Of a DNA stretch of 64,000 bases, positions 20,733 through 35,819 are shown piece by piece. Position numbers and translations under genes: made by a program. The stretch's first letter is position 1. Each line of letters starts with the position of its first letter. The notes beneath the pieces are model-generated. The model ran no database searches and had not been told where the DNA came from. It worked only from the letters and a program-made list of their open reading frames with translations. Source of the stretch: Methanomassiliicoccales archaeon (GTDB lineage: Archaea; Thermoplasmatota; Thermoplasmata; Methanomassiliicoccales; UBA472). The stretch spans positions 1 to 64,000 of the forward strand of contig DASXVU010000047.1 in assembly GCA_036504055.1 (NCBI GenBank), written 5' to 3'.

Positions 20733-20743
20733 TGCGAACTACC

Positions 20744-20770
20744 GTAATAGAATAATATTACATCATAATA
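20744..20770 (+). promoter_or_regulatory. 27-bp shared promoter motif between regulator and DUF1638 gene
   Basis: Begins GTAATAGAATAATAT and ends TCATAATA. It is the partner of 19485-19511 in the same orientation relative to its downstream gene, 54 nt before the DUF1638 ATG. A TATA-like TTTAATATTTTG follows it. Confidence 0.7.
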
Positions 20771-20824
20771 CTTTAATATTTTGGAAGTCTATCATATGCT
20801 AAGAAATCAAGAGGAGTAATTGAT

Positions 20825-21658
20825 ATGAATTCTAAGGGCAGGAATGGATCGGGGAGGCTTATGATGATGGCCTGCCCCATGCTGGAGGATGAGATGATTC
20901 ATAATCTGACCACCGACCCAGATGAGAAAAGGATATTCCTCGTTACGAACAAGAATATTGAGACGCTGCTCCCCAAGCTTAAGTCAAATAATGTCGAGTT
21001 CGAGCAAATCTCTGAGGATGATTTTTTCAACGAGAATGCGAATGTGCCTAGGGAAGGGTACAACATCATCATCTGGATGATGAGTCTCGGACTCCACTCG
21101 GAGCCCAAGACCCTCGCAGCGGAAATCCGCAGGCTGATGCTTACAGTCCCAGGTCATGCCGATGGTATAGCGCTTTACTATGGGCTATGTGGAAACGGGC
21201 TCGAAGGGATCCGGGAATGGGGCAGGGAGAACCTGCCGATACCGATGACGCTCTTCACCGATAGGGAAGGTAAGCTGTGCGACGACTGCATATGTGTGCC
21301 ACTCGGTAGCAGCGAAAGATACTTGAATCTCATGAAGAAGCATTGCGGGGTGATGTACCTCACGCCCGCCGTCGCATGCAACTGGAAGGAGTTCCTCTAC
21401 CATACCGAGCTGTTCAAAGGCCTCGATACCATAGATATGAGCCGTAAGGAGTTCATGAAGCTCATGCTCGATATGGCGCACTACAAGCAGTGCCTGAAGA
21501 TCCAGACCAATCTCGGGGACCAGGCAATCTTCCAGGAAAAGTGCGAAGAGTATGCCAAAGAGCTGGAGTTGGAACTGATCGAGCTCGAAGGCGGGTGGGT
21601 GTCCACAGAAGTCGCGGACCGCATGTATGCCGAGGCAAAATCTTTCCTCGGGGAATGA
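20825..21658 (+). CDS. DUF1638 family protein
   Basis: 277 residues. The opening LMMMACPMLEDEMIHNL, the middle GLCGNGL, CDDCICVPLGSSERYL and CGVMYLTPAVACNW are the conserved cysteine-containing blocks of DUF1638, a family common in methylamine-using methanogens and in bacteria with corrinoid methyltransferases. The biochemical role is not established. Several cysteines could bind metal or cobalamin intermediates, but that is a guess. GAGGAG precedes the ATG. Its promoter shares the 27-bp element with the flavodoxin/ramA-1 operon, supporting a role in corrinoid methyl transfer. Confidence 0.8.
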   Translation: MNSKGRNGSGRLMMMACPMLEDEMIHNLTTDPDEKRIFLVTNKNIETLLPKLKSNNVEFEQISEDDFFNENANVPREGYNIIIWMMSLGLHSEPKTLAAEIRRLMLTVPGHADGIALYYGLCGNGLEGIREWGRENLPIPMTLFTDREGKLCDDCICVPLGSSERYLNLMKKHCGVMYLTPAVACNWKEFLYHTELFKGLDTIDMSRKEFMKLMLDMAHYKQCLKIQTNLGDQAIFQEKCEEYAKELELELIELEGGWVSTEVADRMYAEAKSFLGE

Positions 21659-21698: not shown

Positions 21699-22090
21699 AT
21701 GGTCAGCCTCCCCTATGACCTGGACACAAAGAAGTGGACCTTGAAGGTCCGCGATCCGAAAGGAAAGAACAAATTCGGGGCTGGGAGAATCGTAACGGTC
21801 ATGCTATCGTTCCGGGAAGCGATTTATATTACGTCGCAGAACGCGGGCATTCCTTAGGCCGAAGGGATGAACTCAGTATATCTCGAGCCTCGATGGAAAG
21901 GATGTCCCCTCAGCAGTTCTATGCCGCCATCGACGCGAACGATGCCGGGCAGAGGCTCACTGAGGATTGGGGGCAGAAACCGGACGATCTTGTTCGTCAT
22001 TCAAACGATGAGCCGAAAAAGGCACTGGATGCCGAAAAAGAGAAAAACGTTTTGATAAAGCCTAGAGAATATATCACTGGATATTGTTGA
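21699..22090 (+). pseudogene. Short gene apparently split between two frames at island border
   Basis: Two adjacent reading frames both look protein-like over different stretches. From ATG 21699 one frame gives MVSLPYDLDTKKWTLKVRDP and continues to a TAG at 21855-21857. The frame shifted by one, from about 21800 to the TGA ending at 22090, gives DLYYVAERGH... and MERMSPQQFYAAIDANDAGQ. A frameshift near 21780-21830 would join them into a ~130-residue protein. It lies directly after DUF1638 and directly before the 17-bp tRNA-end repeat. No family recognised; it may instead be one 52-residue gene plus a chance frame. Confidence 0.4.
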
Positions 22091-22092
22091 TG

Positions 22093-22109
22093 GTGCTCCC
22101 GCCGGGATT
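22093..22109 (-). repeat. Probable attachment-site copy: 17 bp of the tRNA-Glu 3' end
   Basis: GTGCTCCCGCCGGGATT is identical to 35718-35734, the 3' terminus of the tRNA-Glu gene plus one flanking base, in the same orientation. It marks the far end of a segment inserted at the tRNA 3' end. Confidence 0.65.
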
Positions 22110-22540
22110 CACCCCTATTGATTACCGGTTTTTTTACCGGTATTATTTCTTAGCCAGCCACATTATTTAACGCCGTTATTAATTTTTAATAAATATATGA
22201 ACTTTGCGTAAAAATATCGAGTAATTAGTATTTAATATTTTAGCTCAACCTTTGTGTCAAGCAGAAATTATTTGAAAATATTCTTTCTTATGATGAGAGT
22301 GAAGATTAAAAGAAAAGAAGATGACAGTTATCTTACCCAAAGACAAGAAATGATTAAATCCGGATTAAATAATATTTAAAATCCCTCATAACCGTTTTAT
22401 CTTCGCTTATCCACCTCGAATCACCAAAATATTGTTTGGATTGACGTGATTTCGTATGATAGGACAGAACCGGATTTCTTGGCATCGATTTGTTGTGGAA
22501 TTTATGAAAATGCCCATCCCGACATTGGGGGATATCTAAA
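22110..22540. other. AT-rich non-coding left end of the island
   Basis: About 430 bp, clearly richer in A and T than the region before it, with no gene seen. It contains an interrupted palindrome GGATTAAATAATATTTAAAATCC-like element at 22362-22384. A similar GGATTAAA...TTTTAAT element occurs at 27824-27843 before ramA-2, so both may be promoter elements. Confidence 0.5.
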
Positions 22541-23482
22541 ATGACTCAAATGAAGCAACCAATAAGAGGATTTGTACCTGCCATAATGGTCATCCTGGGA
22601 TCCGTTATTTTCATATATGTAGGAGAAAATATATTTAGTCTGGATCCGGGAGCACTGGCGGTTTATGCATTATTTTTTGTTTGGGTTGCCTTCGTGATAT
22701 CCTTGTGCGAGAAATGGCCAGTATGCAAATGGAAACAACCTGCTATAGGGCTTTTCTTCTTGACCGCAGCCCTGATTATCGGCGCCTTGCACCCCTTGAT
22801 AATGGGTTTGTTGGGCTTCGGGAGCGAATGGTATTGGCCCATGATCTCTAACTTATTCCTTGGAGTAGGCATCGTAATAGCTTTCGGCAATGGTCTCGTG
22901 GGAGGATTCAAACAACCGAAATCGGTCTTTAGCAATGCCCTTTTCATGTATGTGTTCGCGATTGTGTGTTTATTATGGTTCGGTTTTGTACCAGCAATTT
23001 GGTTTGCCATTTTCGTTCTTTATATCTTCTGGTTCGAAACGTGGCCGTTCGCCAGTACCAAGCAGCCAGCAAAAGGAATTCTCCTTTTCACCGTCATGGG
23101 ATTCTTAGCCTTGCTTTTTGAATTCGCATTTGAGAAAGCAGGAACAACTTTCTTTAATCCCGATGCCGGGCTTTGGTTCGTTCTTTGGACCTGGTGGTTG
23201 GTGCTCACGTCATGGGAACTAGAGACCTGGCCTTTGAAGAATATAAGGCAACCCCTGAAAGGACTTGGCGGATTCTTGATTACCGTTCCTCTCACCTTTG
23301 CCTCGTACTTTGTCATAGTCAATATCTTGAATCTCCCTCTTGGAAATGCCGGGATGTATGTCTGGATATTCGTCGCTTGGGTCTATTCTTGGGACCTCAT
23401 TTTTGGCAAATGGCCTGCAGAACGGACATCACACCTCGATACGGTAAAGGATCCAAAGGAGGTTGCCGTACCAGGTAAATAA
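22541..23482 (+). CDS. Multi-pass membrane protein with repeated WP...QP motifs (paralogue of 26756-27718)
   Basis: 313 residues, about ten hydrophobic segments arranged as repeats. Each repeat boundary carries a KQP-type motif: MKQPIRG at the start, EKWPVCKWKQPAIG near 60-75, GGFKQPKS near 125, ETWPFASTKQPAKG near 168-182, ETWPLKNIRQPLKG near 228-242, and a final GKWPAER. It is rich in Trp and Phe. The paralogue at 26756-27718 lies in the same operon as the corrinoid methyltransferase genes, which suggests a membrane role in methyl-compound uptake or sensing. No known transporter family is recognised with confidence. Start ATG 22541 follows GGGGGATATCTAAA. Confidence 0.7.
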   Translation: MTQMKQPIRGFVPAIMVILGSVIFIYVGENIFSLDPGALAVYALFFVWVAFVISLCEKWPVCKWKQPAIGLFFLTAALIIGALHPLIMGLLGFGSEWYWPMISNLFLGVGIVIAFGNGLVGGFKQPKSVFSNALFMYVFAIVCLLWFGFVPAIWFAIFVLYIFWFETWPFASTKQPAKGILLFTVMGFLALLFEFAFEKAGTTFFNPDAGLWFVLWTWWLVLTSWELETWPLKNIRQPLKGLGGFLITVPLTFASYFVIVNILNLPLGNAGMYVWIFVAWVYSWDLIFGKWPAERTSHLDTVKDPKEVAVPGK

Positions 23483-23674
23483 TTCGAAGAGCTTCTCCAA
23501 TAACGACGGTGAGCATTGTTCGGCTGTGACCCGTTCAATTCTAAAAATAATGAGCCATTCTACTATCTTTTGCAAAGAAAGATTTCTGTCTAGCAATCAT
23601 TGGCGTCTTAGGCTTTATGTTTTTTTGAATAAGTTTGAATAGATTCAAGAACTAAAATATGTGATTTCCTCGAC

Positions 23675-23977
23675 ATGAGTCTTGCCAGTCTTGAAAAGAT
23701 CGGACAGCAACAACCTGATGTTGTACAGGCCCTAGTACAGTTCAAAGACCGTGTGTTCGTGGATGGAGCCCTAAGTGTCAAAGATAAAGCGCTTATTGCC
23801 CTAGCCCTTGGTTGCGCGTTAAAATGCAATACTTGTATCGAAGTGAATTCGCGGCTTGCTATAGATTCAGGGGCTACCAGAGACGAACTGAGGGAAGCTA
23901 TGATAGTCGCCATGTACATGGCAGGGCCTAGCGCAGTTGTATGGACGCCTAAGGTAGCGGAGATATTATCGCAATAA
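23675..23977 (+). CDS. AhpD-like/carboxymuconolactone decarboxylase family protein
   Basis: 100 residues with the CMD-fold core LSVKDKALIALALGCALKCNTCIEVNSRLA, including the CxxC pair (CNTC) and the downstream ATRDELREAMIVAMYMAG helix. AhpD-like proteins use the CxxC in thiol-disulfide exchange or peroxide detoxification. Small CMD proteins are frequent near corrinoid methyltransferase genes in methanogens. The start is ATG with a weak upstream site. Confidence 0.8.
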   Translation: MSLASLEKIGQQQPDVVQALVQFKDRVFVDGALSVKDKALIALALGCALKCNTCIEVNSRLAIDSGATRDELREAMIVAMYMAGPSAVVWTPKVAEILSQ

Positions 23978-24221
23978 GATGATAATCGTTGAGACCCCCC
24001 AATGCGTGGTGACCGAAATGCAATGTTTTTCACCACGCATTACTTTTGCTTTGATAGCTGCTAACAAAATCGTTTTGCCCCAAATGATACAATAAGGCAA
24101 TCATTTCGAATCAACCCTGTATCTGCTTGAGAGAACCCGCCATTTTTAGTGCCTTTGAATTTCACATCAAGATTATTTATCAAGCATGAGGAAATTGTTT
24201 AGTTATTGTTATTTTCAAGCC

Positions 24222-24695
24222 TTACACCATAACGTTCGGATTTGAAGCAATCCAAATGGTACATCCTTTTGTATGCTTTTCCATATTTTCAGGGCGATAT
24301 TCATCAATAATATTTTTCGCAAAACACTCTCTGCCTTCTTTGGAATTACACCGAATTTCAAGACAGCCATCTCTAAGCTCTATGCTTCCAGATTTTACCG
24401 TTGATGTATACCCGATCGGTCTGCCATGTGTAGAAGTCCTAAGTTTTTCGGTTGGCACGAGGAGACCAATTTCTGTTAGCCTTTGAACAATACTGTAGCT
24501 TGTGACGATTGAGACCCCAAGGTGATCAGTGATTTCCTTGACTGATAGACTTCTACCGATCGTCATCGCAACCACTTTTAATGAGTATGGATCTAAAATG
24601 ATATCTGCCAATTCTGATTCCTTAGATTCCGCGACCCTTATCGCATTATGAATGCAACAATCTGTATCGATTTTCCTTGCGGCATCATAAAGCAT
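24222..24695 (-). CDS. Winged-helix transcriptional regulator
   Basis: 157 residues. Residues 30-95 form a winged helix (ILDPYSLKVVAMTIGRSLSV, ITDHLGVSIVTSYSIVQRL), followed by a short C-terminal region with four cysteines (CLEIRCNSKEGRECF and KGC) that could bind metal or sense redox state. It is divergent from the corrinoid protein/methyltransferase operon across a 250-bp AT-rich space and is the obvious candidate to control it. Confidence 0.75.
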   Translation of the reverse strand: MLYDAARKIDTDCCIHNAIRVAESKESELADIILDPYSLKVVAMTIGRSLSVKEITDHLGVSIVTSYSIVQRLTEIGLLVPTEKLRTSTHGRPIGYTSTVKSGSIELRDGCLEIRCNSKEGRECFAKNIIDEYRPENMEKHTKGCTIWIASNPNVMV

Positions 24696-24780
24696 GTGGA
24701 CAACCTCTCTGAAAACCTGATTCCTATACGCCCATTATATTCACTACAGAATCATATACTATATTAATTACTTTCCTATT

Positions 24781-24806
24781 TATATTATAACATAATAATT
24801 TATATT
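24781..24806 (+). promoter_or_regulatory. AT-rich promoter element upstream of the corrinoid protein gene
   Basis: TATTATAACATAATAATTTA contains the inverted repeat TATTAT-AAC-ATAATA and a TATA-like element. It resembles the CATAATA end of the 27-bp motif near ramA-1. It lies about 140-165 nt upstream of the TTG start, implying a long leader. AT-richness weakens the argument. Confidence 0.35.
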
Positions 24807-24945
24807 GCTCACCAGCAGTTGTTTATCTTATTCAATAATCGATGGCTGGCTATTCTATTTTATTATAAATAAAATATATTATAAACCTCTCATTATGTAT
24901 TTAACCGCCAAATCGCGATGTTCAAAATATCAAGGAGGTGGCCCT

Positions 24946-25617
24946 TTGGGGGATACACAACTGAATCTAGAAGGACTCAAAAAAAGCATAGTGGAGGGAA
25001 AAGCCGAGGATGCATTTTCTTTCGCAAATAAGTGCCTGGAGAATGGCGCATCAGTACCAGAGACTCTGACCGTTGCGACGGATGCCATGATGATTGTTGG
25101 AGACTACTACGCAGCACAGAAGTACTACTTGCCTCAGGTGTTAACTTCAGCCAATGCCTTCGAAAAAGCATTCCAGCTGATTCAACCCCTATTATTGAAG
25201 AATGCTGAAGGGAAGAGCACCAAGGGTAGGGTCATTATCGGTGTGTGTGAGGGAGACATCCATGACATTGGCAAAAAGATCGTCGTTGCCATGCTCAGAG
25301 GTGGAGGCTTCGAGGTTCATGATCTTGGACGAGATGTTCCCAATGAGGATTTCATCAAATCGGCTAAAGAAAAATCAGCTGATGTTGTCGCTTTGTCAGC
25401 CCTTATGTCGACGTCGATAACTGAAATGAAGAATTTCATGGACATGGCCAAAGAAGATGGGATCAAGTCTAAAATCATGGTCATGATCGGGGGTGGCTCG
25501 GCCACACCTCAATTCGCAGATACCATTGGTGCAGAAGGCTACGGGAAGACCTCGGCCGATGCGGTGCGGGTTGCCGAGGAGCTTTCAGTCAGGATACAGA
25601 CAAGAAAGGTCGTTTGA
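24946..25617 (+). CDS. Methyltransferase corrinoid-binding protein (MtbC/MtsB/MttC-like)
   Basis: 223 residues. It has the two-domain layout of methanogen corrinoid proteins: a helical cap (residues 1-90) and a cobalamin-binding Rossmann domain with Asp104-x-His106-x2-Gly109 in EGDIHDIGKK, whose His is the lower cobalt ligand, then SALMSTSITEM and VMIGGGSATPQFADTIGAEGYG. The start is TTG at 24946-24948, 7 nt after a strong AGGAGG; an upstream ATG in frame has no such site. It carries the methyl group between the substrate methyltransferase and the acceptor methyltransferase. It is followed after 21 bp by the MtaA-like gene. Confidence 0.9.
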   Translation: MGDTQLNLEGLKKSIVEGKAEDAFSFANKCLENGASVPETLTVATDAMMIVGDYYAAQKYYLPQVLTSANAFEKAFQLIQPLLLKNAEGKSTKGRVIIGVCEGDIHDIGKKIVVAMLRGGGFEVHDLGRDVPNEDFIKSAKEKSADVVALSALMSTSITEMKNFMDMAKEDGIKSKIMVMIGGGSATPQFADTIGAEGYGKTSADAVRVAEELSVRIQTRKVV

Positions 25618-25638
25618 AATAACTGAGGAGGAGAGAAT

Positions 25639-26769
25639 ATGACAGAAGAAATGACAAAATTCGAAAGAGTAAATGCCGTTATGGAGGTCAGGGAGCCGGA
25701 CCGAGTGCCAGTGTATCCATATATTCTGACCCACGGTGTCTATGCTGAAGGGTGGAAATTATCGGACATAACCACTGAGACAACCCTTGATGCCAAGAAA
25801 TGTGCTCAATGCACACTGAAGACCCTGGAGCTCTACGACTATGATATGGTCATCGGTTCCTATCAAGACTTGTACATGGGGGTCACAGAACTTGGCGGAA
25901 AGATCAAGATCCCCAACAAGTTCGGATCGGCAGTGTCGATGAAAGAACCACCAGTTACAGATGCAACCGCATGGGATCGAGTGAAAAAGCTTCTCCCATA
26001 CGACCCTAGGAAGGAGGGGAGGGCCAAATCAGTCTTGGAATCATATAAGATCGTCTCTGACAAAGTTGGGAAGACGACACCAGTCATACCATGCTGGTGG
26101 CCAGGGCCAACTGCAGCAATGTGCATGTTCCGAGGTCCAGAGATGCTTTCAATGGACATGGCTTTGGACCCGAGCTTTGCCCACGAGATGATAAAGGCGG
26201 CTAACGAATTTGCCATCGATTTCTTGGAGGGCATGTACGAGAATGGGGCTAACTCCGTCTCTCATACGGGAGAAATATATGGTGTAGAGCTGCTAAGTGC
26301 AGACCAGTGTCATGAGTTTGTCGTCCCATACGTCAAGGAACTCTCCCGGAGGATCTATAAGGATTGGGGGCAGAAAACCTGGCTGCACACGCATGGCGAT
26401 TACAAGAAACCAGACACGGCTCCCATCATCGGTGAATATGTGAATGACGCGAAGATCGCCGGTTTCCACCCTGACGAGAAGCACCCTCCAGAGTGGCTAC
26501 AGGAGAACGTTAAAGAAAAGTACCATATATCGGTGGCCGGGATCATTCATGGGCCTGGACCGCTCCTGAATGGGCCTGCTGAAGAGATCGAGAGGGTGAC
26601 CAAAAATATCATTGATAAGGCCGGCGTCGGAGGAGGTCTCATGCTAGCGCCTTCCTGCGAGGTCCCGCCGGACACACCGATTGAGAATTTCAAGAAATGG
26701 GTTCAGGTCACCCACACGTATGGAAAATATCCCTTGCAAAACCAGGTGATAAAGCATGCCAACGCTTAA
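25639..26769 (+). CDS. MtaA/MtbA/UroD-superfamily corrinoid methyltransferase
   Basis: 376 residues of the uroporphyrinogen decarboxylase/MtaA fold, which transfers methyl from a corrinoid protein to coenzyme M or another thiol using zinc. Ligand positions in canonical members are H-x-C plus a distant C. Here they read LHTHGDYKK (His250, His252) and LAPSCEVPP (Cys340), so the second ligand is His, not Cys. No separate substrate methyltransferase (MtaB, MtmB, MtbB, MttB) lies in the cluster. This recalls MtsA-MtsB of methylthiol metabolism, where one UroD-type protein does both half-reactions. GAGGAGAGAAT precedes the ATG. The substrate is unknown. Confidence 0.85.
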   Translation: MTEEMTKFERVNAVMEVREPDRVPVYPYILTHGVYAEGWKLSDITTETTLDAKKCAQCTLKTLELYDYDMVIGSYQDLYMGVTELGGKIKIPNKFGSAVSMKEPPVTDATAWDRVKKLLPYDPRKEGRAKSVLESYKIVSDKVGKTTPVIPCWWPGPTAAMCMFRGPEMLSMDMALDPSFAHEMIKAANEFAIDFLEGMYENGANSVSHTGEIYGVELLSADQCHEFVVPYVKELSRRIYKDWGQKTWLHTHGDYKKPDTAPIIGEYVNDAKIAGFHPDEKHPPEWLQENVKEKYHISVAGIIHGPGPLLNGPAEEIERVTKNIIDKAGVGGGLMLAPSCEVPPDTPIENFKKWVQVTHTYGKYPLQNQVIKHANA

Positions 26770-27718
26770 ACAGCCCCTTCGGGGGCTTATTCCCGCCCTT
26801 TTTGTAATAATTGCCTCCTTTATTTTCATTTTTTTAGGAGAGCAAATATTCAAGATGGCTTCGGGAGACATAGCTGTATATGCCCTCTTCTTTGTTTGGG
26901 TGGCATTCGTTATATCTTTGGCTGAGAAGTGGCCGATGGGCAAATGGAAGCAACCTGCCGTTGGATTGGGTTTCGTGACCATTGCTTTAGTATTAGGTAT
27001 CCTGCACCCCCTGATCATGGAATGGCTTGGATTTGGCCCTGAGTGGTCCTGGCCGCTGATCTCGAATCTATTCCTGGCTGTAGGTCTGGTCATCGCATTC
27101 AGTAACGGCCTGGTGGCTGGGTTCAAGCAACCCAAATCAGTGTTTAGCAATGCGCTCTTCATGTACGTCTTCGCAGTAGTCGGGTTGCTATGGTTCGGTT
27201 TTGTACCAGCCATTTGGTTTGCGATGTTCGTATTCGTATTCTTCTGGATGGAGACATGGCCATTTGCAGCAACGAAACAGCCGGCGAAGGGTATCTCTTT
27301 GTTCGTAGTGATGGGCTTCTTCGCCTTATTGCTTGAGTACGCATTCGAGCAGGCTGGGACGACCTTCTTCAATCCAGATGCCGGGCTATGGTTTGTCCTC
27401 TTTGTTTGGTGGCTAGTGCTAACATCATGGCAGCTAGAAACTTGGCCATTGAAGAATGTGAAACAGCCTGGAAAGGCTCTCGGCGGCCTAATTATCTCAG
27501 CGACTTTGACCTTTGTTTCCTACTATGTCATCGTGGACGTGATAGGGATTGGCCTCGGCGCAGCTGGCATGTATGTTTGGGTGTTTGTTTCCTGGCTATA
27601 TACCTGGGATATTGTCTTTGGGAAGTGGCCAGCGGAGCGTGCCGAAAAAATTTCCGTCAAGCAAGGCGAGACAATTGCAACCGAGAAAACAACTGGTTCT
27701 GTCGGAGGTGGAAAATAA
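26756..27718 (+). CDS. Multi-pass membrane protein with repeated WP...QP motifs in methyltransferase operon
   Basis: 320 residues, clearly paralogous along its full length to the product of 22541-23482: LKQPLRG, EKWPMGKWKQPAVG, GFKQPKS, ETWPFAATKQPAKG, ETWPLKNVKQPGKA, GKWPAER. Its ATG lies inside the end of the methyltransferase gene (14-bp overlap), so translation is coupled. A hairpin terminator follows. The operon context makes it a candidate permease for the methylated substrate; the family is not recognised. Confidence 0.75.
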   Translation: MPTLKQPLRGLIPALFVIIASFIFIFLGEQIFKMASGDIAVYALFFVWVAFVISLAEKWPMGKWKQPAVGLGFVTIALVLGILHPLIMEWLGFGPEWSWPLISNLFLAVGLVIAFSNGLVAGFKQPKSVFSNALFMYVFAVVGLLWFGFVPAIWFAMFVFVFFWMETWPFAATKQPAKGISLFVVMGFFALLLEYAFEQAGTTFFNPDAGLWFVLFVWWLVLTSWQLETWPLKNVKQPGKALGGLIISATLTFVSYYVIVDVIGIGLGAAGMYVWVFVSWLYTWDIVFGKWPAERAEKISVKQGETIATEKTTGSVGGGK

Positions 27719-27754
27719 GTTACTAAGCTCATGCATTTCCCCCTAATCCATTAC

Positions 27755-27779
27755 GCGGGAGTCTCCTCCCGCTTTTTTT
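27755..27779 (+). terminator. Hairpin plus T-run terminator after the methyltransferase operon
   Basis: GCGGGAG-TCTC-CTCCCGC forms a 7-bp GC-rich stem with a 4-base loop, followed at once by seven T. This bacterial-style intrinsic terminator ends the corrinoid protein/methyltransferase/membrane-protein operon, 36 bp after its last stop codon. Confidence 0.8.
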
Positions 27780-27897
27780 AATATCAATCCTTGGCTCACA
27801 GGCTCGATATGATTCCAAAATCTGGATTAAAAAAAATTTTAATGCTGAGTCAAATGGTAAATATCCAGAATTTTTCTAAGGTGATTTGGAGACTCTA

Positions 27898-29535
27898 ATG
27901 AGATTTGGAATAGCTCTTGATTTGGGAACTAGTGGCTATAGAACGCATCTTGTGGATTTGTCTAGAAATGGCAAGATCGTCTCCACGGCAATCACGATGC
28001 GCCATCCTTTACCTGGGGCGAACATAATGGATCATCTGCACTTCTGGATCGAAAATGGAAGTGAGATTGGTCATAAGATAATAACCGATAGTGTGGATGA
28101 ACTGATCGAAATGCATTCTGCCGAGCCGAATGAAATCGAACGTATCGCAGTTTGTGGTAACCCCGCGCAAGTGTCAATGTTCCAGAATATTGAAATTAGA
28201 GATCTTGCTCGAGCCGGTCAGAATGCCCTCAAGCGTCTCAATGTCGAACCTCCTGACCGAAGGGGAAATGTTACTTCGGCAGGGGAAATCGGATTAACGA
28301 GCGTATGCTCGGAAGCAGAAGTAGTTATCCCTCCTTCAATTCGTCACGAGATCGGTGCAGACGCCCTGGCCATGATAATAAAAACAGGAATTCTTGAGAA
28401 AAATGAAACCTGCATGGTCACTGACTATGGTACTAACGCCGAAATGGGTCTATTCCACGAAGGAGAGCTGTACACTGGCTCGGCTGCAGCTGGCCCCGCC
28501 ATGGAGGGGCAGGCCATATCTTTCGGCATGCTGGCGGCACCTAACGCGATATGTGATTTTTCCCGTTGTTATGGTAGATACTGGAGCAATATGGTATTGA
28601 ATGCTGGGCTAGAATCAGAGTTGGGTTCCCTCATTGATCCAACTAGTGGATATTCGAAACGAGGAAATGGAATAAGGGCTAGAGGCATCACAGGAACTGG
28701 TGTTGTTGGGGCAGTTGCCCTCGGTCTTCAGTCAGGAATAATTAAATTGCCCAATATTCAGACGATGGATGGAGTTTTGCATTTCCAAGATGGGATTACC
28801 TTCAATCGAGAGGATCTCATGGAGGCAGGAAAAGCAATGGGAGCAATCAGGGCAGGACATAGAACGTTAATCGAAGAAGTTGGGACACCAGATCAGGAAA
28901 TAGGGACGATGTATCTCGCTGGTGCATCCGGAACGTACGTCGATCCGATAAAGGCGCAAATTGTTGGCATGATACCGCAGGTGATCGAGGAGACCGTTCA
29001 GGTTGGTAACACCTCGCTGATGATGGCTTATGATCTGGTTACTAACCCCGATACCTTGGACATGATGCAATCTGTGGCTGACTCCATTGCCTCCAAACAC
29101 ATCATGTTTGCGTCGTCTAAGACCTTCGAATCCTACTTTGCCAATGAACTAGCATTTTGGACCGAGGGAATGCCAATCGAATTGTACAATCGCTTGATCA
29201 AAAAAGAAGGCCTAAGACCATTGCCGGAAATTACGCCTCCTAAGAGAACTCTGAGATTAGTAAATGGAGATATTCCAGTCATTGGGGATAAGGGGCTTAA
29301 GATCCTTGAACACATTGGAGTGTACTTAGTTGGCAACTTCATCGACTGCCGTGGTTGCGGGAAATGCGAAAGGGGATGCCCGGAACAAGCGTTGAAGTTA
29401 GTTCCTCAGGGAAGACTGGAATTCGATATTGAGGTAGAGACCGACCTCTGCCTGGGAACCGCTTGCAGGAGATGCGAACAGATATGCCCTCAAAAAGCAT
29501 TTCGTTTTAGTGATCTTAGAATCGTTAAAACCTGA
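27898..29535 (+). CDS. ramA: RamA-type corrinoid protein reductive activase, second copy
   Basis: 545 residues from ATG 27898, which follows GGAG by 6 nt; a TTG four codons earlier is less likely. The N-terminal GIALDLGTSGYRTHLVDL is the ATP-binding strand-loop. The body has VTDYGTNAEMGL and GSAAAGPAMEGQAI. The C-terminus carries two 4Fe-4S motifs, CRGCGKCERGCP and CLGTACRRCEQICP. It is a full-length paralogue of the interrupted copy at 17109-18751. It probably reactivates the corrinoid protein encoded just upstream. Its TGA (29533-29535) lies inside the left terminal repeat of the adjacent insertion sequence, so the native C-terminus has been replaced by the IS boundary, ending shorter and less basic than the other copy. 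Confidence 0.9.
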   Translation: MRFGIALDLGTSGYRTHLVDLSRNGKIVSTAITMRHPLPGANIMDHLHFWIENGSEIGHKIITDSVDELIEMHSAEPNEIERIAVCGNPAQVSMFQNIEIRDLARAGQNALKRLNVEPPDRRGNVTSAGEIGLTSVCSEAEVVIPPSIRHEIGADALAMIIKTGILEKNETCMVTDYGTNAEMGLFHEGELYTGSAAAGPAMEGQAISFGMLAAPNAICDFSRCYGRYWSNMVLNAGLESELGSLIDPTSGYSKRGNGIRARGITGTGVVGAVALGLQSGIIKLPNIQTMDGVLHFQDGITFNREDLMEAGKAMGAIRAGHRTLIEEVGTPDQEIGTMYLAGASGTYVDPIKAQIVGMIPQVIEETVQVGNTSLMMAYDLVTNPDTLDMMQSVADSIASKHIMFASSKTFESYFANELAFWTEGMPIELYNRLIKKEGLRPLPEITPPKRTLRLVNGDIPVIGDKGLKILEHIGVYLVGNFIDCRGCGKCERGCPEQALKLVPQGRLEFDIEVETDLCLGTACRRCEQICPQKAFRFSDLRIVKT

Positions 29536-29605
29536 CCTCCCGACTTTTAGGCACTGAACTCCATTGATATTCACGTAGCCAGTATGCATCAAAATCCTTT
29601 AATAA

Positions 29606-29629
29606 TACTATGCCTATATAGGCATAGTA
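29606..29629. promoter_or_regulatory. 24-bp perfect palindrome over the transposase promoter and start
   Basis: TACTATGCCTAT followed by its exact reverse complement. It ends one base before the transposase ATG (29631) and includes a TATATA core. In RNA it would fold into a hairpin next to the start codon, which would limit translation from read-through transcripts. Confidence 0.6.
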
Positions 29630-29630
29630 A

Positions 29631-31181
29631 ATGAAGCCATTCACCCGTGTCAAGAACATCAACGGCATCGACTACGTTTACGAGATCACGCCATACTACG
29701 ATCCAGACACGAAAATGACCAAGCAGAAATCAAAGTATCTGGGTAAGCTGGTCGACGGCGAGACGAAGCGGATGAGAAAGGCGTTGCCCCGCAACGCCTA
29801 CGACTTCGGCGACCTGCTGCCCGCCTTCAAGATCATCCAGGAACTTGAACTCGACTCGATGCTTGATAAGTTGCTGCCGGATGACAAGGCCAGGACTGTC
29901 CTGGCCTTGGCGGTGAACCGGGTGGTCGATCCCTGTTCCGTCAGCAATGCCCGGACCTGGTATGAACGCACCATCCTTTCCTCGCTCTGGGGAGAGCTGC
30001 CGCTCTCCTCCCAGACGCTCAGCGACTTCCTGGCTGCTCTGGGCGGAAGCTCGATACCGGAGCAGTTCACCGAACTGCTCCTGGACAGGATCGGCAGGAC
30101 CGGACCGCTGATCTACGACATCACCTCGTTCAGCAGCTCGTCGAAGCTGCTGGAACTGCTCGAATACGGTCACAACCGGGATAGCGATGGCCTCCCGCAG
30201 ATGAATCTCTCTCTGATCGCCCACAAAACGCTCGGGATACCGCTCGGATTCCAGACCTATCCAGGCTCCATCTCGGACGTCAGCACCATCAAGAACACCG
30301 TGGCCAGGCTCAGGTCACTTGGCCTGGAGGCCCCGGTACTGGTCATGGACCGGGGATTCTACTCCCTAGCCAATTTGACCGACATCGTCTTGGCCGGGTA
30401 TGATTTCATCATACCCACGCCGATGAGGCTGGACGAGGCCAAGTCGATCATCTCCAAAAGTCATACCGAGATCGAGGACCCAGCTTACCTGAGGAAGCTG
30501 GAGGGCGAGACGTTCTTTGTGAAGGACGTAACTCTCCAGCTCGGTGAGCTGGAGGTAGCTGGCTACCTTTACTATGACCTGCGCCGGGAGCAGGAGGAAA
30601 AGACCTCTTTCTACGAATGGCTGGATCGCGTGAAAGTAAAGCTGGAGGCAAGAGAGGTCAAGTCCTGGCAGAACCCTGCCAGGGTCTTCGAGGAGGAGGC
30701 CGGTGCACTGGTCCAGTACTTCGGCTGGAAGTTGGATGGACGAAAGTTCATCATCGAGGTCAAGAAGAAGGCCGTCGCCGCCCGGCTGAACCGGGCCGGG
30801 AAGATGATCATACTGCACTCTGGCCAGCACAGCTGGCAGGAGTGTCTGTCGTGGTCTCGGGAGCGGGACGTCATCGAGAAGATGTTCTACTCGCTGAAGA
30901 ACGATCTGGCAGGTCTGCCGTTGAGGGCTCAGAAGGTCGATGTGGTCAAGGGCATGATCTTCGTGAACTTCGTGGCGCTGATCATACGATCCAGGCTGCT
31001 GGCTTTGATGCGGTCGACCAAGCTCTGCCGGGACCATTCGCTTCCCTCGGTCATGCTGGAGCTTTCGAAGATCCGTAGAATGGAGCTGCCAGATGGCAGC
31101 TTCGTCACCAGCGAGGTGACGAAGAAACAAAGGAAGATCATCGAGGCGTTGGAGCTCGATCTTGACCGACTATGTGCCTAA
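29631..31181 (+). CDS. IS1634-family (IS4-like DDE) transposase
   Basis: 516 residues. N-terminal region VKNINGIDYVYEITPYYDPD is typical of IS1634-type archaeal transposases. DDE features: LIYDITSFSSSS (first Asp), VLVMDRGFYSLANL (second Asp with the D-R-G-F/Y motif), and SRERDVIEKMFYSLKNDLAG (Y-(2)-R-(3)-E-(6)-K-like signature with catalytic Glu). The frame is intact, so the element may be active. It ends inside the right inverted repeat. Confidence 0.9.
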   Translation: MKPFTRVKNINGIDYVYEITPYYDPDTKMTKQKSKYLGKLVDGETKRMRKALPRNAYDFGDLLPAFKIIQELELDSMLDKLLPDDKARTVLALAVNRVVDPCSVSNARTWYERTILSSLWGELPLSSQTLSDFLAALGGSSIPEQFTELLLDRIGRTGPLIYDITSFSSSSKLLELLEYGHNRDSDGLPQMNLSLIAHKTLGIPLGFQTYPGSISDVSTIKNTVARLRSLGLEAPVLVMDRGFYSLANLTDIVLAGYDFIIPTPMRLDEAKSIISKSHTEIEDPAYLRKLEGETFFVKDVTLQLGELEVAGYLYYDLRREQEEKTSFYEWLDRVKVKLEAREVKSWQNPARVFEEEAGALVQYFGWKLDGRKFIIEVKKKAVAARLNRAGKMIILHSGQHSWQECLSWSRERDVIEKMFYSLKNDLAGLPLRAQKVDVVKGMIFVNFVALIIRSRLLALMRSTKLCRDHSLPSVMLELSKIRRMELPDGSFVTSEVTKKQRKIIEALELDLDRLCA

Positions 31182-31310
31182 AACCCGGGAAGTCAGGTTA
31201 AAAGTGATCGAACTAGTAATGACAACCTGTTTTAACGAATGCCGTTCCTTCTGGTAATGCAAAGGGTCACACCATTGGAGGAAATTATTAATATCGAAGG
31301 ACTCGTTGCT

Positions 31311-31330
31311 ATTTCAACAGTAATTGAAAT
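31311..31330. promoter_or_regulatory. Inverted-repeat operator candidate of the metal ATPase gene
   Basis: ATTTCAA-CAGTAA-TTGAAAT, a perfect 7-bp inverted repeat with a 6-bp spacer, 16 bp before the ATPase ATG and about 20 bp after a TATA-like ATTATTAATA. ArsR/SmtB-type repressors bind such sites; an ArsR gene ends the cassette. Confidence 0.6.
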
Positions 31331-31346
31331 AGAAATGAGGCATTAG

Positions 31347-33563
31347 ATGAACAATCAGAAGGATGGCAAAGAACTCGAAACGGTCGTTCTGAACATCGAA
31401 GGATTGGATTGTTCCTGTGACGTCCAAATAATTGAAAAGAAATTGAGATCGTTAGCCGGTGTGGAGAACTTTGATATCGATCTGGTTTCCAAAAAAGTCC
31501 TTGCCTATTACGACCCATCGGTGGCATCCGTAAAGGATATTGTCCAGTCCATATCGGAGACGGGGATGAGCTGTTCTCAGATCAAAGACCGAAAACTCCG
31601 AAGCAGCTGGTGGAGGGACAAACAGCAACTAGCGCTTTACTGCAGCGGAATGATAACGCTGTTCACGTTCGTCCTTATGTTCTTGGGGGTCCAAGAAATC
31701 GTAACAAACGCATTTTTTGGAGTGGCGGTGCTTGTGGGTGTATACCATCCAGCCCGAAAAGCAATAATCGCTCTACTCAACCTCGTGGCTACGATTCATC
31801 TGCTAATGCTGATAGGCGCCACCGGCGCCGTCTTGCTCGGAATGTGGTATGAAGCCGCAATACTCATCTTCGTCTATTCACTCGGCGATGTGCTGGAATC
31901 CTACGCCGTGGACAAAGCGAGGGGCGCGATCAGATCACTGATAGAGCTGGTCCCGAAAAAAGCGCTGGTACGAAAGGATGGCAACGAGGTTGTAATGTCC
32001 ACCGAGGATATTGTGGTCGGTGACATCGTTATCGTCAGACCGGGTGAAAGGATCCCTGTGGATGGTGTAGTTTCCAATGGTGTCTCCCATGTCGACCAGG
32101 CCGCCGTGACCGGCGAGCCAATTCCCGTGGGAAAAAAGATCGGCGACGAGGTTTTTGCTGGAACCATCAATCAAAATGGATCATTAGAGGTCAATGTGAA
32201 TAAGCTGGCATCCGAGACCATGCTTTCCAAGATAATCTGTTCTGTCGAGGAGGCGCAGGCCAATAGGACATCGTACCAGAGGTTCTCCGACAGCTTCGCC
32301 CAGTACTATACCCCCGCAATGTTCGTGCTGGGTATACTCGTAGCCATCGTGCCACCCCTATTCATTGGTTCTGACTGGCATACATTTATCCTCCGAGGAT
32401 TGGTCGTGTTCGTTGTATCATGCTCTTGCGGCCTTGCTCTTTCCGTCCCGGTTGCGGTCGTAGGGGCAATGGCGAATGCGGCCCGCAATGGTACGGTCTA
32501 CAAGGGTGGGGCGTATCTTGAGGCCGTCGACAAATTAAAGGTCATTGCGTTTGACAAGACTGGCACCCTTACTATAGGCAGACCGGAAGTAACAGATATC
32601 ATAGTCTACAACGGGCTTTCAGAAAATGACCTTCTTGACCTAGCAGGAAGCATCGAATCGAGGTCTGGACATCCGCTCGCAGCCGCTATAGTCAGAAAGG
32701 CGAAGGAAAACAATGCCTACTCCAATATTCCCCCAGGTGACTTCCAAGAGATCGCGGGGCTTGGGATTTCTGCAATTGTAAACGGTAAGAGGTTCCTCAT
32801 CGGAAACCAAAGACTGCAGAACAGTAACGGCGTCTCAATGGAACAGTCCCATAAGACCCTGGAGGAGTTAGAGAGCTCGGGGAAGACGGTCGTATCAATC
32901 AGCTCGGAAGGAAACCTGTTGGGTCTGATTGCTATCGCTGATAACGTCAGGCCTGGAGCGAAAGAGACGCTTCAGAGAATTAAGCAGTCCGGCATCAGGA
33001 CGGTCATGCTAACCGGTGATAACGAACGCAGCGCAAAATCCATCGCCCTCCAGGTTGGGGTCGACGAATACTATTGTCAACTGCTGCCAGTGGACAAGGT
33101 TGAAGTGATCAAGAAATTGAAGGAAAGATATGGCACAGTAGCAATGGTCGGAGATGGTATCAACGATGCTCCAGCCATGGCAGCATCAGATGTCGGCATT
33201 GCGATGGGCGCTGCCGGGACGGACATTGCCATCGAGGCTGGGGATGTGGTTCTCATGTCTGATGACCTCTCTAAACTAGTCTACCTTCGCGAATTGAGCA
33301 GCAGGTCGGTGACCACTATCAAGCAGAACATTTGGTTCTCGTTGATCAACATCGGATTCATGATTGGGGCGGCATTGATAGGCTGGCTGGGATTGGTCAG
33401 CGGCCTGTTGCTGAATGAAGCAAGCGCAGTCCTGGTGATCTTAAACGCATTGAGATTGTTAAAATGGAAGAGCAAGACAGAAAGTAGAGCGGTGATTAAC
33501 GATGAGCCTCCTGCATTAACCATCAGCGGAATAGAAGGAATTTCAGTTAAAGGAAGGAATTAG
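31347..33563 (+). CDS. P1B-type heavy-metal transporting ATPase with CSC metal sites
   Basis: 738 residues. An N-terminal HMA domain (13-80) carries GLDCSCD (Cys22, Cys24) in place of the usual CxxC. About eight membrane helices follow. P-type motifs are intact: TGEPIPVGKK, the phosphorylation site DKTGTLT (Asp403), SGHPLA of the nucleotide domain, TGDN and GDGINDAPAM. The intramembrane metal site that is normally CPC reads SCSCGLAL (Cys359-Ser-Cys361), so the hallmark proline is lost. It should export a soft metal such as Zn, Cd, Cu or Ag; the altered sites prevent naming one. GAGGCATTAG precedes the ATG. Ends in TAG. Confidence 0.88.
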   Translation: MNNQKDGKELETVVLNIEGLDCSCDVQIIEKKLRSLAGVENFDIDLVSKKVLAYYDPSVASVKDIVQSISETGMSCSQIKDRKLRSSWWRDKQQLALYCSGMITLFTFVLMFLGVQEIVTNAFFGVAVLVGVYHPARKAIIALLNLVATIHLLMLIGATGAVLLGMWYEAAILIFVYSLGDVLESYAVDKARGAIRSLIELVPKKALVRKDGNEVVMSTEDIVVGDIVIVRPGERIPVDGVVSNGVSHVDQAAVTGEPIPVGKKIGDEVFAGTINQNGSLEVNVNKLASETMLSKIICSVEEAQANRTSYQRFSDSFAQYYTPAMFVLGILVAIVPPLFIGSDWHTFILRGLVVFVVSCSCGLALSVPVAVVGAMANAARNGTVYKGGAYLEAVDKLKVIAFDKTGTLTIGRPEVTDIIVYNGLSENDLLDLAGSIESRSGHPLAAAIVRKAKENNAYSNIPPGDFQEIAGLGISAIVNGKRFLIGNQRLQNSNGVSMEQSHKTLEELESSGKTVVSISSEGNLLGLIAIADNVRPGAKETLQRIKQSGIRTVMLTGDNERSAKSIALQVGVDEYYCQLLPVDKVEVIKKLKERYGTVAMVGDGINDAPAMAASDVGIAMGAAGTDIAIEAGDVVLMSDDLSKLVYLRELSSRSVTTIKQNIWFSLINIGFMIGAALIGWLGLVSGLLLNEASAVLVILNALRLLKWKSKTESRAVINDEPPALTISGIEGISVKGRN

Positions 33564-33615
33564 AGACATTGCAGATGAATGAAAAACGATGCGTGGAATT
33601 TGAAGGTGGAATAGA

Positions 33616-33873
33616 ATGCAAAACGACAGAAAGGCGGTAGAAGGGTTAGAGACGGCCATTTTCAAGATAACTGGACTATGTTCTTGCGAATTCAAGATTA
33701 TCGAGAAGAAATTGAAGAACCTTGATGGGGTCGATAACTATAGTTTAAACCCGATCACCAACCAATTGAAGGTCACTTACAATAAGTCCTTGATGACCAT
33801 CGAAGGGATCCAAAAGGCTGTTTCAAAGGCTGGCGGGAAGGCCACCCAGATGAAGTCAGACCAGATATTCTGA
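33616..33873 (+). CDS. Small HMA-domain metal-binding protein
   Basis: 85 residues forming one ferredoxin-like HMA fold: FKITGLCSCEFKIIEKKLKN, then VDNYSLNPITNQLKVTYN. It is most similar to the N-terminal domain of the adjacent ATPase, including the same CSC arrangement (LCSCE). It is likely the metallochaperone delivering metal to that ATPase. It starts at ATG 33616 after AAGGTGGAATAGA. Confidence 0.8.
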   Translation: MQNDRKAVEGLETAIFKITGLCSCEFKIIEKKLKNLDGVDNYSLNPITNQLKVTYNKSLMTIEGIQKAVSKAGGKATQMKSDQIF

Positions 33874-33902
33874 TATCTTAACCTTATCATTTGATTCATC
33901 TT

Positions 33903-34280
33903 TCAATGATCATGACCCAAGGTGTCCCTTCCAAGCTTGGTTATCGAAAATATCTTCCAATTCTTTTTCTGATATGATTTAACCAGGCCAGCTTCCTCGA
34001 GGGAATTTAGATGATAGGAAAGCTTGGAATCGGAGACCTTTAAGAATTCTTTTAGGACGCAGGGGCAGAGGTCACAACTCCTCAAGGCCCAGAGAATCTT
34101 GAGGCGTGTTTTATCTGACAGTGAATGATGAATATTTATCTGGCGTTCCAGATCGGCTTCTGATGGCATACTGTAGGATAGTTTTTCCAACCCGCCAATT
34201 TCAAGGATAGCCTCCGAGACCTCATCTGGTAAGTCCCTGTCCTTTTTCCTTTTCCCATTGGCACCAGGAGCTCTGACCAT
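33903..34280 (-). CDS. ArsR/SmtB-family metalloregulator
   Basis: 125 residues. A winged helix occupies residues 48-115 (HSLSDKTRLKILWALRSCDL, VLKEFLKVSDSKLSYHLNSL). The CDLCPC sequence in helix alpha-3 is a Cys cluster of the type that binds Cd, Pb, As or Zn and releases DNA, and a C-terminal GHDH may add ligands. It converges on the HMA gene and is the likely repressor of the ATPase cassette through the inverted repeat at 31311. A GATTGATATCAATC palindrome lies about 58 bp upstream of its own start. Confidence 0.85.
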   Translation of the reverse strand: MVRAPGANGKRKKDRDLPDEVSEAILEIGGLEKLSYSMPSEADLERQINIHHSLSDKTRLKILWALRSCDLCPCVLKEFLKVSDSKLSYHLNSLEEAGLVKSYQKKNWKIFSITKLGRDTLGHDH

Positions 34281-34337
34281 GTCAAAGCATTATACCTTTA
34301 GCTATTTTAAATTGATATTTTGGATTGTTTGGTGTCA

Positions 34338-34351
34338 GATTGATATCAATC
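34338..34351. promoter_or_regulatory. 14-bp palindrome upstream of the ArsR gene
   Basis: GATTGATATCAATC is perfectly self-complementary and located in the promoter region of the ArsR-type gene (start 34280). It shares TCAA/TTGA half-elements with the ATPase operator but in the opposite arrangement. Confidence 0.4.
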
Positions 34352-34520
34352 ACTGTCTGCACATAGTACTATTATTCTAAACAACCGTCCATAATCCATA
34401 GACGCAGAAAAGATCTTATGGGAAATGGAAAAGAACAGCGGCGAGGTTTGTAACCCTTTGATACTCATTTCCAAAATAATGCCAGAATGAATCCCTCGTC
34501 AAGCGGAAGAGGGAAAATTC

Positions 34521-34730
34521 GTGATGAGCTTGCCGGATATTCCTGTGAAGTACAAGCAACTAATCATGATCTCGGTTGCCGCCGCCTTACAGAATAGGCA
34601 ATGTGCGGAATACTTCATCAAAGTTGGGAAACACATGGGATTGACCGATAAGGAGATCGGCGAGGCAGTTCTTGCTGCCCGCTTCGCTATGGCGTCGACA
34701 ATCTTCTCCAATGTTGAGCCGGGATTTTAG
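34521..34730 (+). CDS. Short CMD/AhpD-like protein
   Basis: 69 residues, starting with GTG-ATG after GAGGG. The core KYKQLIMISVAAALQNRQCAEYFIKVGKHMGLTDKEIGEAVLAARF resembles the carboxymuconolactone decarboxylase/AhpD core, but the CxxC is reduced to one Cys and the protein is shorter than the copy at 23675. It could be a decayed or specialised copy. Ends in TAG. Function unknown. Confidence 0.6.
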   Translation: MMSLPDIPVKYKQLIMISVAAALQNRQCAEYFIKVGKHMGLTDKEIGEAVLAARFAMASTIFSNVEPGF

Positions 34731-34942
34731 TCACTGATCAAAGATGAGAAGATGTGAGACAATTGAGGGCCCGGGGCGAAACCCAATAACCTTAACACCT
34801 ATCGAGAAAGGCGGTTGTATGACGCTAAGCCTATTAACATACTATGCGACCCAGGCTCTCAATTATAGTATTACAAAATTATTTAAAATAGCAAAAATGC
34901 ATATCTACCTGAATTATCGTTTTGAGAATATTAGGCGACATC

Positions 34943-35275
34943 ATGACATCTAAAGTTCGGGTTAACATGTTTCCTTGCGAGAACAAATCGGAAATCGAGG
35001 TACAATCTACGGATGATGGGAACTATGTCGTCAAGGTTACCAGTACCTGCAAGAAAGCAGAGAGGTTCATTGAAGGGTTGGGATTTATTTCTCTGACCGA
35101 TCTCACAGACAAAAAGGAAAGCAAAATCTTCCGTGACTTCATCGAATCGGATATGAGCGCTAATTGCCTGATACTCCCTGGAGTGCTCACTGCTGCATGG
35201 GTAGAGGCTGGGATGATCGCCCGGTCCATGGCGAAGAAAAGAGTCCCGTTAAGTATTGAGTTCATCGATGGCTGA
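34943..35275 (+). CDS. Small conserved protein (DUF6951-like)
   Basis: 110 residues from ATG 34943; an earlier in-frame start lacks support. Sequence layout: beta-rich N-terminus with a Cys, VVKVTSTCKKAERFIEGL, a charged centre, then NCLILPGVLTAAWVEAGMIA and a final basic strand. It resembles small cysteine-containing proteins often encoded next to methyltransferase genes in methylotrophic methanogens (DUF6951 type), in which CPVP is replaced here by CLILP. Assignment is by recollection of the pattern and is tentative. Confidence 0.5.
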   Translation: MTSKVRVNMFPCENKSEIEVQSTDDGNYVVKVTSTCKKAERFIEGLGFISLTDLTDKKESKIFRDFIESDMSANCLILPGVLTAAWVEAGMIARSMAKKRVPLSIEFIDG

Positions 35276-35717
35276 CACAACATGATCTGGTCGGAAATCG
35301 GAAATGTCAAACCTTCTTGCTTTGTGCAATGAGGTTATCTCCTGAATAATTTCTGAAATCATGTTCGATGGCTTTCTCGATGCCTGTTCATCGACACAGG
35401 AATCGGATGTTCTGAGCAATGTCGGAAAAACTCGGAACAATTAGGTCGGATTCTCAACCTAAAACATAAGTCAATCCAAGGGTCACTCCATTTTGACAAG
35501 GGAGGCGTGGCTCAAGACCAAGCATTGGCTGGTAGAATCAGAATGCATGCTTGATGGTCGAGCTGCAAAAATAATGAATGGCATCAGGCTACACCAAAGT
35601 CGATTAACATGAAGATCGGCATAGGAGAATGAAGAAGGTTTTTATCGGCCAGATGACTCAATGTACAATAACCCCCCATATTAACCTTTCATAATCGGTG
35701 GAATGGATAAAAGTAAA
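35276..35717. other. Intergenic region at the right end of the island, no complete gene
   Basis: A 40-codon frame from about 35504 (LTREAWLKTKHWLVESECML...) to 35612 has some protein character but no good start and may be a remnant. No integrase was found here or elsewhere in the island. Confidence 0.4.
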
Positions 35718-35734
35718 GTGCTCCCGCCGGGATT
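35718..35734 (-). repeat. tRNA-proximal copy of the 17-bp attachment repeat
   Basis: Identical to 22093-22109 and contained, apart from its first base, in the 3' end of the tRNA-Glu gene. Orientation fits insertion of a 13.6-kb segment at the tRNA 3' end. Confidence 0.65.
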
Positions 35735-35819
35735 TGAACCCGAGTCGTTGACTTGCTTCCGCGAAGCAACTCTCCGCGCCGAAAGGCCAACATGATTGAC
35801 CGGACTACACTACGGGAGC
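35719..35819 (-). tRNA. tRNA-Glu (anticodon TTC) with a ~26-nt intron
   Basis: On the minus strand the acceptor GCTCCCG pairs with CGGGAGC, followed by discriminator A. The T-arm reads TCGGG-TTCAAAT-CCCGG. The anticodon stem TTGGC/GTCAA encloses CTTTCGG with anticodon TTC. Between loop and 3' stem strand lies an extra ~26 nt containing the hairpin TTGCTTC-GCG-GAAGCAA. The intron GAGAG can pair with CTTTC of the anticodon loop, giving a bulge-helix-bulge at the canonical 37/38 position. CCA is not encoded. A TATA-like TTTAAGTA lies about 28 bp upstream. Confidence 0.9.

Follow-up and report, generated by a model that had tools for sequence, protein, structure and literature searches.

The window analysed here comprises bases 1–64000 of a 149,896-bp contig (DASXVU010000047.1) in the 2.66-Mb, 49-contig genome of a Methanomassiliicoccales archaeon. 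Positions 22110–35717 of this window are very probably an island that entered at the 3′ end of a tRNA-Glu gene through site-specific recombination, in a tandem array of which it forms the second layer. The existence of the island was confirmed, and its kind is an ordinary one; the more interesting part is its cargo, in which methyl-transfer genes and metal-resistance genes may have arrived together as a mobile unit. The comparison set consisted of 147 genomes of the order Methanomassiliicoccales, and G-, L- and C-codes are used below for the genomes compared, for loci and for contigs of the source genome, respectively.

Repeats and composition of the segment

The features from which the integration model is built are the following:
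21714–22090, + strand: decayed gene, by homology of a tyrosine recombinase, in two frames with the middle missing; its stop codon (22088–22090) lies directly before the CCA
22091–22109, + strand: displaced tRNA-Glu 3′ end, consisting of the core at 22093–22109 and two bases completing an encoded CCA (TGG on the + strand)
22110–35717, no strand: inserted segment of 13.6 kb, defined by the two cores bounding it, its composition and its absence at the same tRNA in relatives
35718–35734, + strand: 17-bp core at the 3′ end of the intact tRNA-Glu gene, right end of the segment, from the repeat search
35719–35819, − strand: tRNA-Glu gene, the integration target (Rfam RF00005, 47.3 bits), interrupted in the anticodon region by an insert (intron)

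The 17-bp sequence GTGCTCCCGCCGGGATT occurs in two exact copies in the window, at 22093–22109 and 35718–35734, both read on the + strand. These are the only exact occurrences in the source genome, three further places having two mismatches, and in shuffled controls, with up to three mismatches allowed, matches averaged 0.17 and never numbered three. The core of the present tRNA is preceded on the + strand by AAA; the displaced copy instead reads TGG at this place, that is, an encoded CCA absent from the present tRNA gene. A tRNA-targeted island is recognised by a directly oriented, displaced piece of the tRNA 3′ end at its far side. This mark was found, and the geometry proposed in the initial annotation, an exact direct repeat with a real tRNA-Glu at its right end, was borne out. 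ARAGORN, as run, made no call for the tRNA-Glu gene of the window, the insert of which it does not handle; the counterpart in G004, which is free of the intron, was called tRNA-Glu(ttc).

The segment is also AT-richer than its surroundings, as had been claimed, with a GC content of 0.467 against 0.519 on the left (7.2–22.1 kb) and 0.567 on the right (38.4–64 kb). The GC content at third codon positions (GC3) of the cargo genes is mostly low (0.35–0.63, except 0.79 for an insertion sequence, IS), most genes outside having values of 0.64–0.84; exceptions among the latter are the genes at 18856 (0.48) and 36193 (0.57).

A decayed integrase at the left edge

A profile built from 10 intact integrases and run over the six frames of all 64 kb matched the window at two places only, 21714–21821 (i-E 3.4e-7) and 21902–22084 (i-E 2.6e-5). 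The two stretches are in different frames and collinear, correspond to positions 209–241 and 334–378 of the 379 in the profile, and end at the repeat. Searching with intact integrase relatives by tblastn gave a match at 21717–21893. The remnant has neither a complete catalytic set nor an open frame and, being frameshifted and devoid of its middle part, is a pseudogene. PF00589 (Phage_integrase) scored above its cut-off in four intact relatives of the remnant, and the remnant itself fits the family profile, so that by homology it is a tyrosine recombinase; here and below, bit scores for PF, TIGR and NF models were judged against curated cut-offs. The earlier statement that no integrase remains thus holds for the inside of the segment, where the profile found none, and fails at the left end, which a decayed integrase adjoins just outside the repeat. 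For a tRNA-targeted island an integrase gene on the inside is the usual case and no strict requirement.

The integrase family was matched in 83 of the 147 genomes. Thirty integrase loci were fetched, 18 with a tRNA called by ARAGORN and 12 with none, and in all 18 (G053, one of these, having contributed to the profile) the 3′ end of the tRNA faces the end of the integrase gene. The gap between the two is 0 in seven loci and at most 2 bp in nine; in 14 the ends lie within 60 bp or overlap, and in four they are 101–672 bp apart. The targets are tRNAs for Pro, Ala, Cys, Arg, Lys and Met, as well as Glu in G004 and G059 and Gly in G059. In the source genome an open integrase lies against tRNA-Gly (C22), a 236-aa integrase frame against tRNA-Pro (C27), and the same 15-bp integrase end adjoins the second tRNA-Glu (ctc, C41). 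The combination TGGATATWGTTGATR+GTGCTCCC, i.e. the 15 bp left of the repeat followed by the start of the tRNA end, was found seven times in five of the 147 genomes with up to three mismatches (control, 0): four times at tRNA-Glu ends, two of them orphan (the window and G043), once at tRNA-Gly and twice off any tRNA. Matches to the 76-aa integrase end were weak in many genomes and were used only with a supporting tRNA or a long open frame. Pattern matches to the integrase and to the methyltransferase described below also occurred in viral contigs, none being confirmed as relatives.

Some loci of the family show further arrangements. In L129, L130 and L144 the integrase frame extends 42–57 bp into the tRNA, the protein tail being encoded antisense to the tRNA. 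In G043 (L080, 12156–13670) an orphan scrap of a tRNA-Glu 3′ end is flanked by two integrases, one broken and one intact, whose ends both point towards it; the core of L080, TCCCGnCGGGA, is nearly palindromic and may permit both directions. The source genome has a further integrase remnant (C44; L087, 9991–10356), with a tRNA-Glu-like scrap (two mismatches) a few hundred bp away.

Proposed order of events

Since genes of this family touch their tRNA, an integrase end standing at an orphan tRNA end, with the tRNA itself 13.6 kb distant, indicates that something was put between the two. Two tandem elements are the simplest account, and the finding of the integrase remnant leaves the integration mechanism better supported than first stated. 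The step in base composition and the patchy occurrence of the cargo, with the methyltransferase in 4 of 147 genomes, agree with this account. Judging from the anatomy, an element with an integrase gene ending directly at the tRNA 3′ end would first have entered tRNA-Glu, leaving the remnant at 21714–22090 as its trace. Recombination of a second element at the tRNA core would then have placed this element between integrase and tRNA; the 3′ end of the tRNA would thereby have been restored on the right and the old end with its encoded CCA left as an orphan at 22091–22109. The island would either have lost its own integrase or owe its movement to related ones, and the source genome still has at least two of these as open frames; the IS1634 copy would have jumped into the island later. 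The order may also have been the reverse, with an older island already in place and the integrase-bearing element entering at its orphan core, which results in the same map.

The reading initially given, a single element bounded by the 17-bp repeats that lost its integrase and has no older layer beneath it, would explain two direct-orientation cores around an AT-rich block without an integrase inside. It is unlikely, because the remnant of the integrase is located beyond the block and runs up to an orphan core with a CCA absent from the present tRNA, and because an integrase end that in its family touches the tRNA needs an earlier or separate element at this place.

Relatives and a possible empty site

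The flank 5′ of the tRNA is conserved: homologues of the RIO1-kinase gene (38568–39575) and of the next gene (39572–40111) are present at 12 of 12 tRNA-Glu loci of the same family, and the eIF-1A gene (38443–38769), scored separately, at 9 of the 12. The 3′ side is variable: G015, G011, G014 and G010 have neighbours in common, and those of the others differ. The methyltransferase cassette was not found at the orthologous tRNA in any of 10 relatives of the same family and other genera, examined with 2.8–10.4 kb of flank each (G001 and G017, with less than 2 kb, were left out of this count). The initial annotation had named occurrence of the entire segment throughout the relatives as an observation that would count against integration; this was not encountered. 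The flank of the same tRNA carries one DUF6951 gene in G007 and a remote UroD protein (24%) in G006. In G004 an integrase remnant touches the intact tRNA-Glu, the block is absent and the right flank is conserved; this tRNA-Glu may represent an empty site for the block.

A formyl-transferase-like gene (6393–7166) is 28.6 kb from the tRNA in the window and about 4.4 kb from it in G003 and G004, and in G043, which belongs to another family, it shares a neighbourhood with the RIO1 gene. If this gene marks the old flank, about 24 kb were added in the source lineage, 13.6 kb of which are tRNA-proximal; a longer variable region has the 13.6-kb segment as its final portion.

That no site-specific integration occurred, the block being an old low-GC chromosomal region and the 17-bp copy a chance match or a duplicated scrap of tRNA, is highly improbable. 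Low GC does reach beyond the block (0.519 at 7.2–22.1 kb and 0.490 at 35.8–38.4 kb), and no left boundary of any larger element was found. Against this, the exact 17-bp match is unique in the genome, the repeat directly adjoins the end of an integrase from a family located next to tRNA 3′ ends, and the cassette is absent at tRNA-Glu in all 10 relatives with enough flank.

The tandem-array model has to be held against several observations that weigh against it, beginning with this spread of low GC beyond the block. The core, with 17 bp, is short. Neither an integrase nor a recognisable integrase end was detected within 22110–35717: the likeness of the right end to integrase ends does not exceed chance, and the left end has a weak likeness to a second type of integrase end, 38, 150 and 182 of 3000 random places scoring as well as the segment against three references. 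The candidate integrase end at the left border was accordingly rejected, as it is not significant for two of the references and at most suggestive for the third (38/3000). The core at the left boundary of the older, integrase-bearing element was searched for and not found. Furthermore, the remnant in G004 is only 32% identical to that of the window over 56 aa; it may be an independent insertion that shows the type of site and not a direct ancestor. Finally, the genomes compared include no second member of the source organism's own genus, so that the proposed empty site rests on other genera.

Between the 5′ side of tRNA-Glu and the eIF-1A gene, positions 36193–38314 hold a WbuX-like gene (149.8 bits, cut-off 203) and an alpha/beta hydrolase gene. 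Close relatives of the WbuX-like gene were not found in 60 other genomes, three of which gave weak matches.

Methyl-transfer cargo

The left part of the island carries the following genes:
22541–23482, + strand: membrane protein, paralogue of 26756–27718 (71% identical)
23675–23977, + strand: carboxymuconolactone-decarboxylase (AhpD-like) family protein, from the family search
24222–24695, − strand: small protein, probable regulator, without a family match; a homologue (38–40%) stands beside the cassette in relatives
24895–25617, + strand: methyltransferase cognate corrinoid protein (MtbC/MttC-like), PF02310 and PF02607, start codon uncertain, with relatives in the PDB
25639–26769, + strand: UroD-superfamily methyltransferase (Pfam URO-D, 135.9 bits), by cut-off neither MtaA nor MtbA
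26756–27718, + strand: multi-helix membrane protein of unknown family, adjoining the methyltransferase in relatives too
27886–29535, + strand: RamA, corrinoid-protein reductive activase (TIGR04270, 699.6 bits, cut-off 500); its 3′ end overlaps the end of the IS
29531–31197, + strand: IS1634-family insertion sequence (NF033559, 253 bits), with terminal inverted repeats and a 6-bp duplication in the flanks

The predicted IS in the segment was confirmed by its IS1634 transposase; a GC3 of 0.79 together with the inverted arms and the 6-bp duplication points to a later arrival from a host-like genome. The corrinoid protein has both B12-binding domains, with a TIGR02370 score (180.7 bits) below the cut-off of 215.3. 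The methyltransferase is below every curated cut-off (NF040654, 78.7 vs 400; NF041608, 62.8 vs 600; TIGR01463, 111.1 vs 235.4). Its alignment with 4ay7 (MtaA of Methanosarcina mazei; E 3e-11) places HTH on HIC and keeps the later Cys, so that the HxC...C motif of MtaA and MtbA, which in MtaA binds zinc, is replaced by HTH...C. The residues H250, H252 and C340 are invariant in four of four homologues. Structure predictions had mean pLDDT values of 45.6 for the membrane protein and 48.7 for the methyltransferase, too low for a fold search.

The cargo had been described as a complete corrinoid methyltransferase set. A corrinoid protein, RamA and one UroD methyltransferase are indeed present; since no cargo protein matched the MtaB, MtmB, MtbB or MttB families and the segment has no recognised separate substrate methyltransferase, completeness is not established. 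Likewise, the segment holds no substrate methyltransferase of known specificity, and the suggested acquisition of substrate-specific methylotrophy is best called plausible. The UroD methyltransferase was found in 4 of the 147 genomes (G000, G005, G010 and G045). Its nearest homologues are 80–83% identical and belong to other genera, so any transfer is old or its donor unsampled; the closest named relatives are those of Methanomassiliicoccaceae fen_33 and Methanomassiliicoccus sp. UBA6.

Two loci of these relatives show further details. The membrane-protein match in G005 (L112, 1829–2764) contains one TAG, which could be a stop, an error or a pyrrolysine codon, the order being one that uses pyrrolysine. 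In G010 (L113, 10750–10766) the cassette and the ATPase cluster adjoin a tRNA-Glu 3′ scrap with 15 of 17 letters; a short GY-like end on the other side of that cassette was considered as an integrase end and rejected, being missed by the integrase profile and no better than a hint. In the window itself, outside the island, positions 17109–21658 form a second methyl-transfer-like neighbourhood with a RACo/RamA-like protein, a flavodoxin, an ArsR-type regulator and DUF1638.

Metal cluster and its link to the cassette

The metal-export cassette reported for the segment was recovered, with a metal P-type ATPase, a heavy-metal-associated (HMA) protein and ArsR:
31347–33563, + strand: heavy-metal P1B-type ATPase with an N-terminal HMA domain (TIGR01525, 618 bits, cut-off 346; TIGR01512, 499 bits)
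33616–33873, + strand: small HMA-domain protein, from the family search
33903–34280, − strand: ArsR/SmtB-family metalloregulator (NF033788, 59.6, cut-off 55)
34521–34730, + strand: carboxymuconolactone-decarboxylase family protein, from the family search
34922–35275, + strand: DUF6951 protein, a recurrent neighbour of the ATPase in relatives

A close ATPase (at least 53% identical) is present in 9 of the 147 genomes, the next matches reaching at most 42%; the 53% line was drawn after the list had been seen, and related genomes are not independent. All four genomes with the methyltransferase have the close ATPase. The two genes are linked in G000, G010 and G045, in different orders; in G005 their position on two short contigs allows no judgement on linkage. 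At a contig edge in G009, a membrane-protein fragment stands next to the ATPase cluster, and the methyltransferase is absent from that assembly. Next to the cassette in G045 (UBA6) stands an ArsR-ArsM fusion (NF008823, 320 bits, cut-off 263), and ACR3 was recognised near the ATPase cluster of G053 (423 bits) and at the same tRNA in G007 (432 bits; cut-off 283). The segment in the window contains neither ArsM nor ACR3.

These associations prompt a reading of the cassette as a movable corrinoid-dependent system for methylated metalloids (e.g. methylarsenicals), in which the UroD methyltransferase and its corrinoid partner would pass the methyl group to methanogenesis and the ATPase cluster would export the metal(loid) left over. 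This reading is doubtful, and methylated metalloids are a speculative candidate substrate. Demethylation of dimethylarsenate has been reported for methylotrophic methanogens, Methanomassiliicoccus among them; a corrinoid route is called probable for it, and no gene is named in the available text of the two sources (PMC10579292, PMC6776024).

Ordinary methylotrophy, for example by an MtsAB-like dimethylsulfide pair or an additional methylcobamide:CoM methyltransferase, with the metal cluster as an unrelated passenger of the hot spot, has about an even chance of being correct; it competes with the methylated-metalloid reading and leaves the integration model untouched. The UroD methyltransferase and the corrinoid protein are of the kinds of MtsA and MtsB; no MtsA model was among the matches of the cargo proteins. 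Metal genes evidently also travel alone, since the ATPase occurs in G053, G049, G055 and G043 with no methyltransferase cassette, and G007 has arsenite efflux and DUF6951 at the same tRNA with the cassette absent. In addition, the membrane-protein gene occurs without a close ATPase in G031 and G021, which likewise counts against a link between cassette and metal cluster. An unrelated passenger fits less well with a close ATPase, present in nine of 147 genomes, accompanying the methyltransferase in four of four and being linked to it in three with differing orders. Nor does an ordinary enzyme sit easily with scores far below the MtaA and MtbA cut-offs and with His in place of Cys at one of the three expected zinc ligands.

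In these methyl-reducing methanogens a tRNA gene serves as a landing site for stacked cargo, and the integrase family matched in 83 of 147 genomes is the one that probably does the stacking. If the cargo acts on an unusual methyl donor, methanogens of this kind could take up substrate range in one package, with the connection to metal resistance providing a concrete candidate gene set for methylarsenic demethylation.

Comparison with known systems

Among the matches listed from the open-licence literature, neither a tRNA island of Methanomassiliicoccales nor a corrinoid methylarsenic methyltransferase was found. The available part of a study of Methanomassiliicoccales genomes (PMC4153887) mentions genomic islands once and the absence of mtsAB in one species, and the word integrase was not found there. 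Archaeal tRNA-targeted elements with a classical, non-split recombinase, as far as described in the accessible text of PMC8371274, share with the present locus a tyrosine recombinase, a target at the tRNA 3′ end, a restored tRNA with a displaced fragment and tandem insertion at one site. In contrast to these, the integrase stop codon here touches the CCA of the tRNA, and the island has no integrase of its own, the remnant belonging to the neighbouring layer. Integrated mobile elements of thaumarchaea likewise have short cores, with a median of 17 bp, and tandem insertions; their hosts belong to another phylum, and methyl-transfer cargo is not mentioned in the portion of PMC6563490 available.

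With regard to the cargo, Type I mlp gene clusters share UroD-family methyltransferase homologues clustered with corrinoid proteins, whereas the main text of PMC10418091 lacks the terms ATPase, heavy metal and arsen; the comparison was made by description only. The soluble CoM methyltransferases MtaA, MtbA and MtsA have in common with the cargo enzyme the UroD superfamily, as judged from sequence, a corrinoid partner next door and RamA. The cargo enzyme differs from them in falling below the cut-offs for MtaA, MtbA and the MtaA/CmuA subfamily, in having HxH in place of HxC, and in its neighbours, which here are a membrane protein and a metal cluster.

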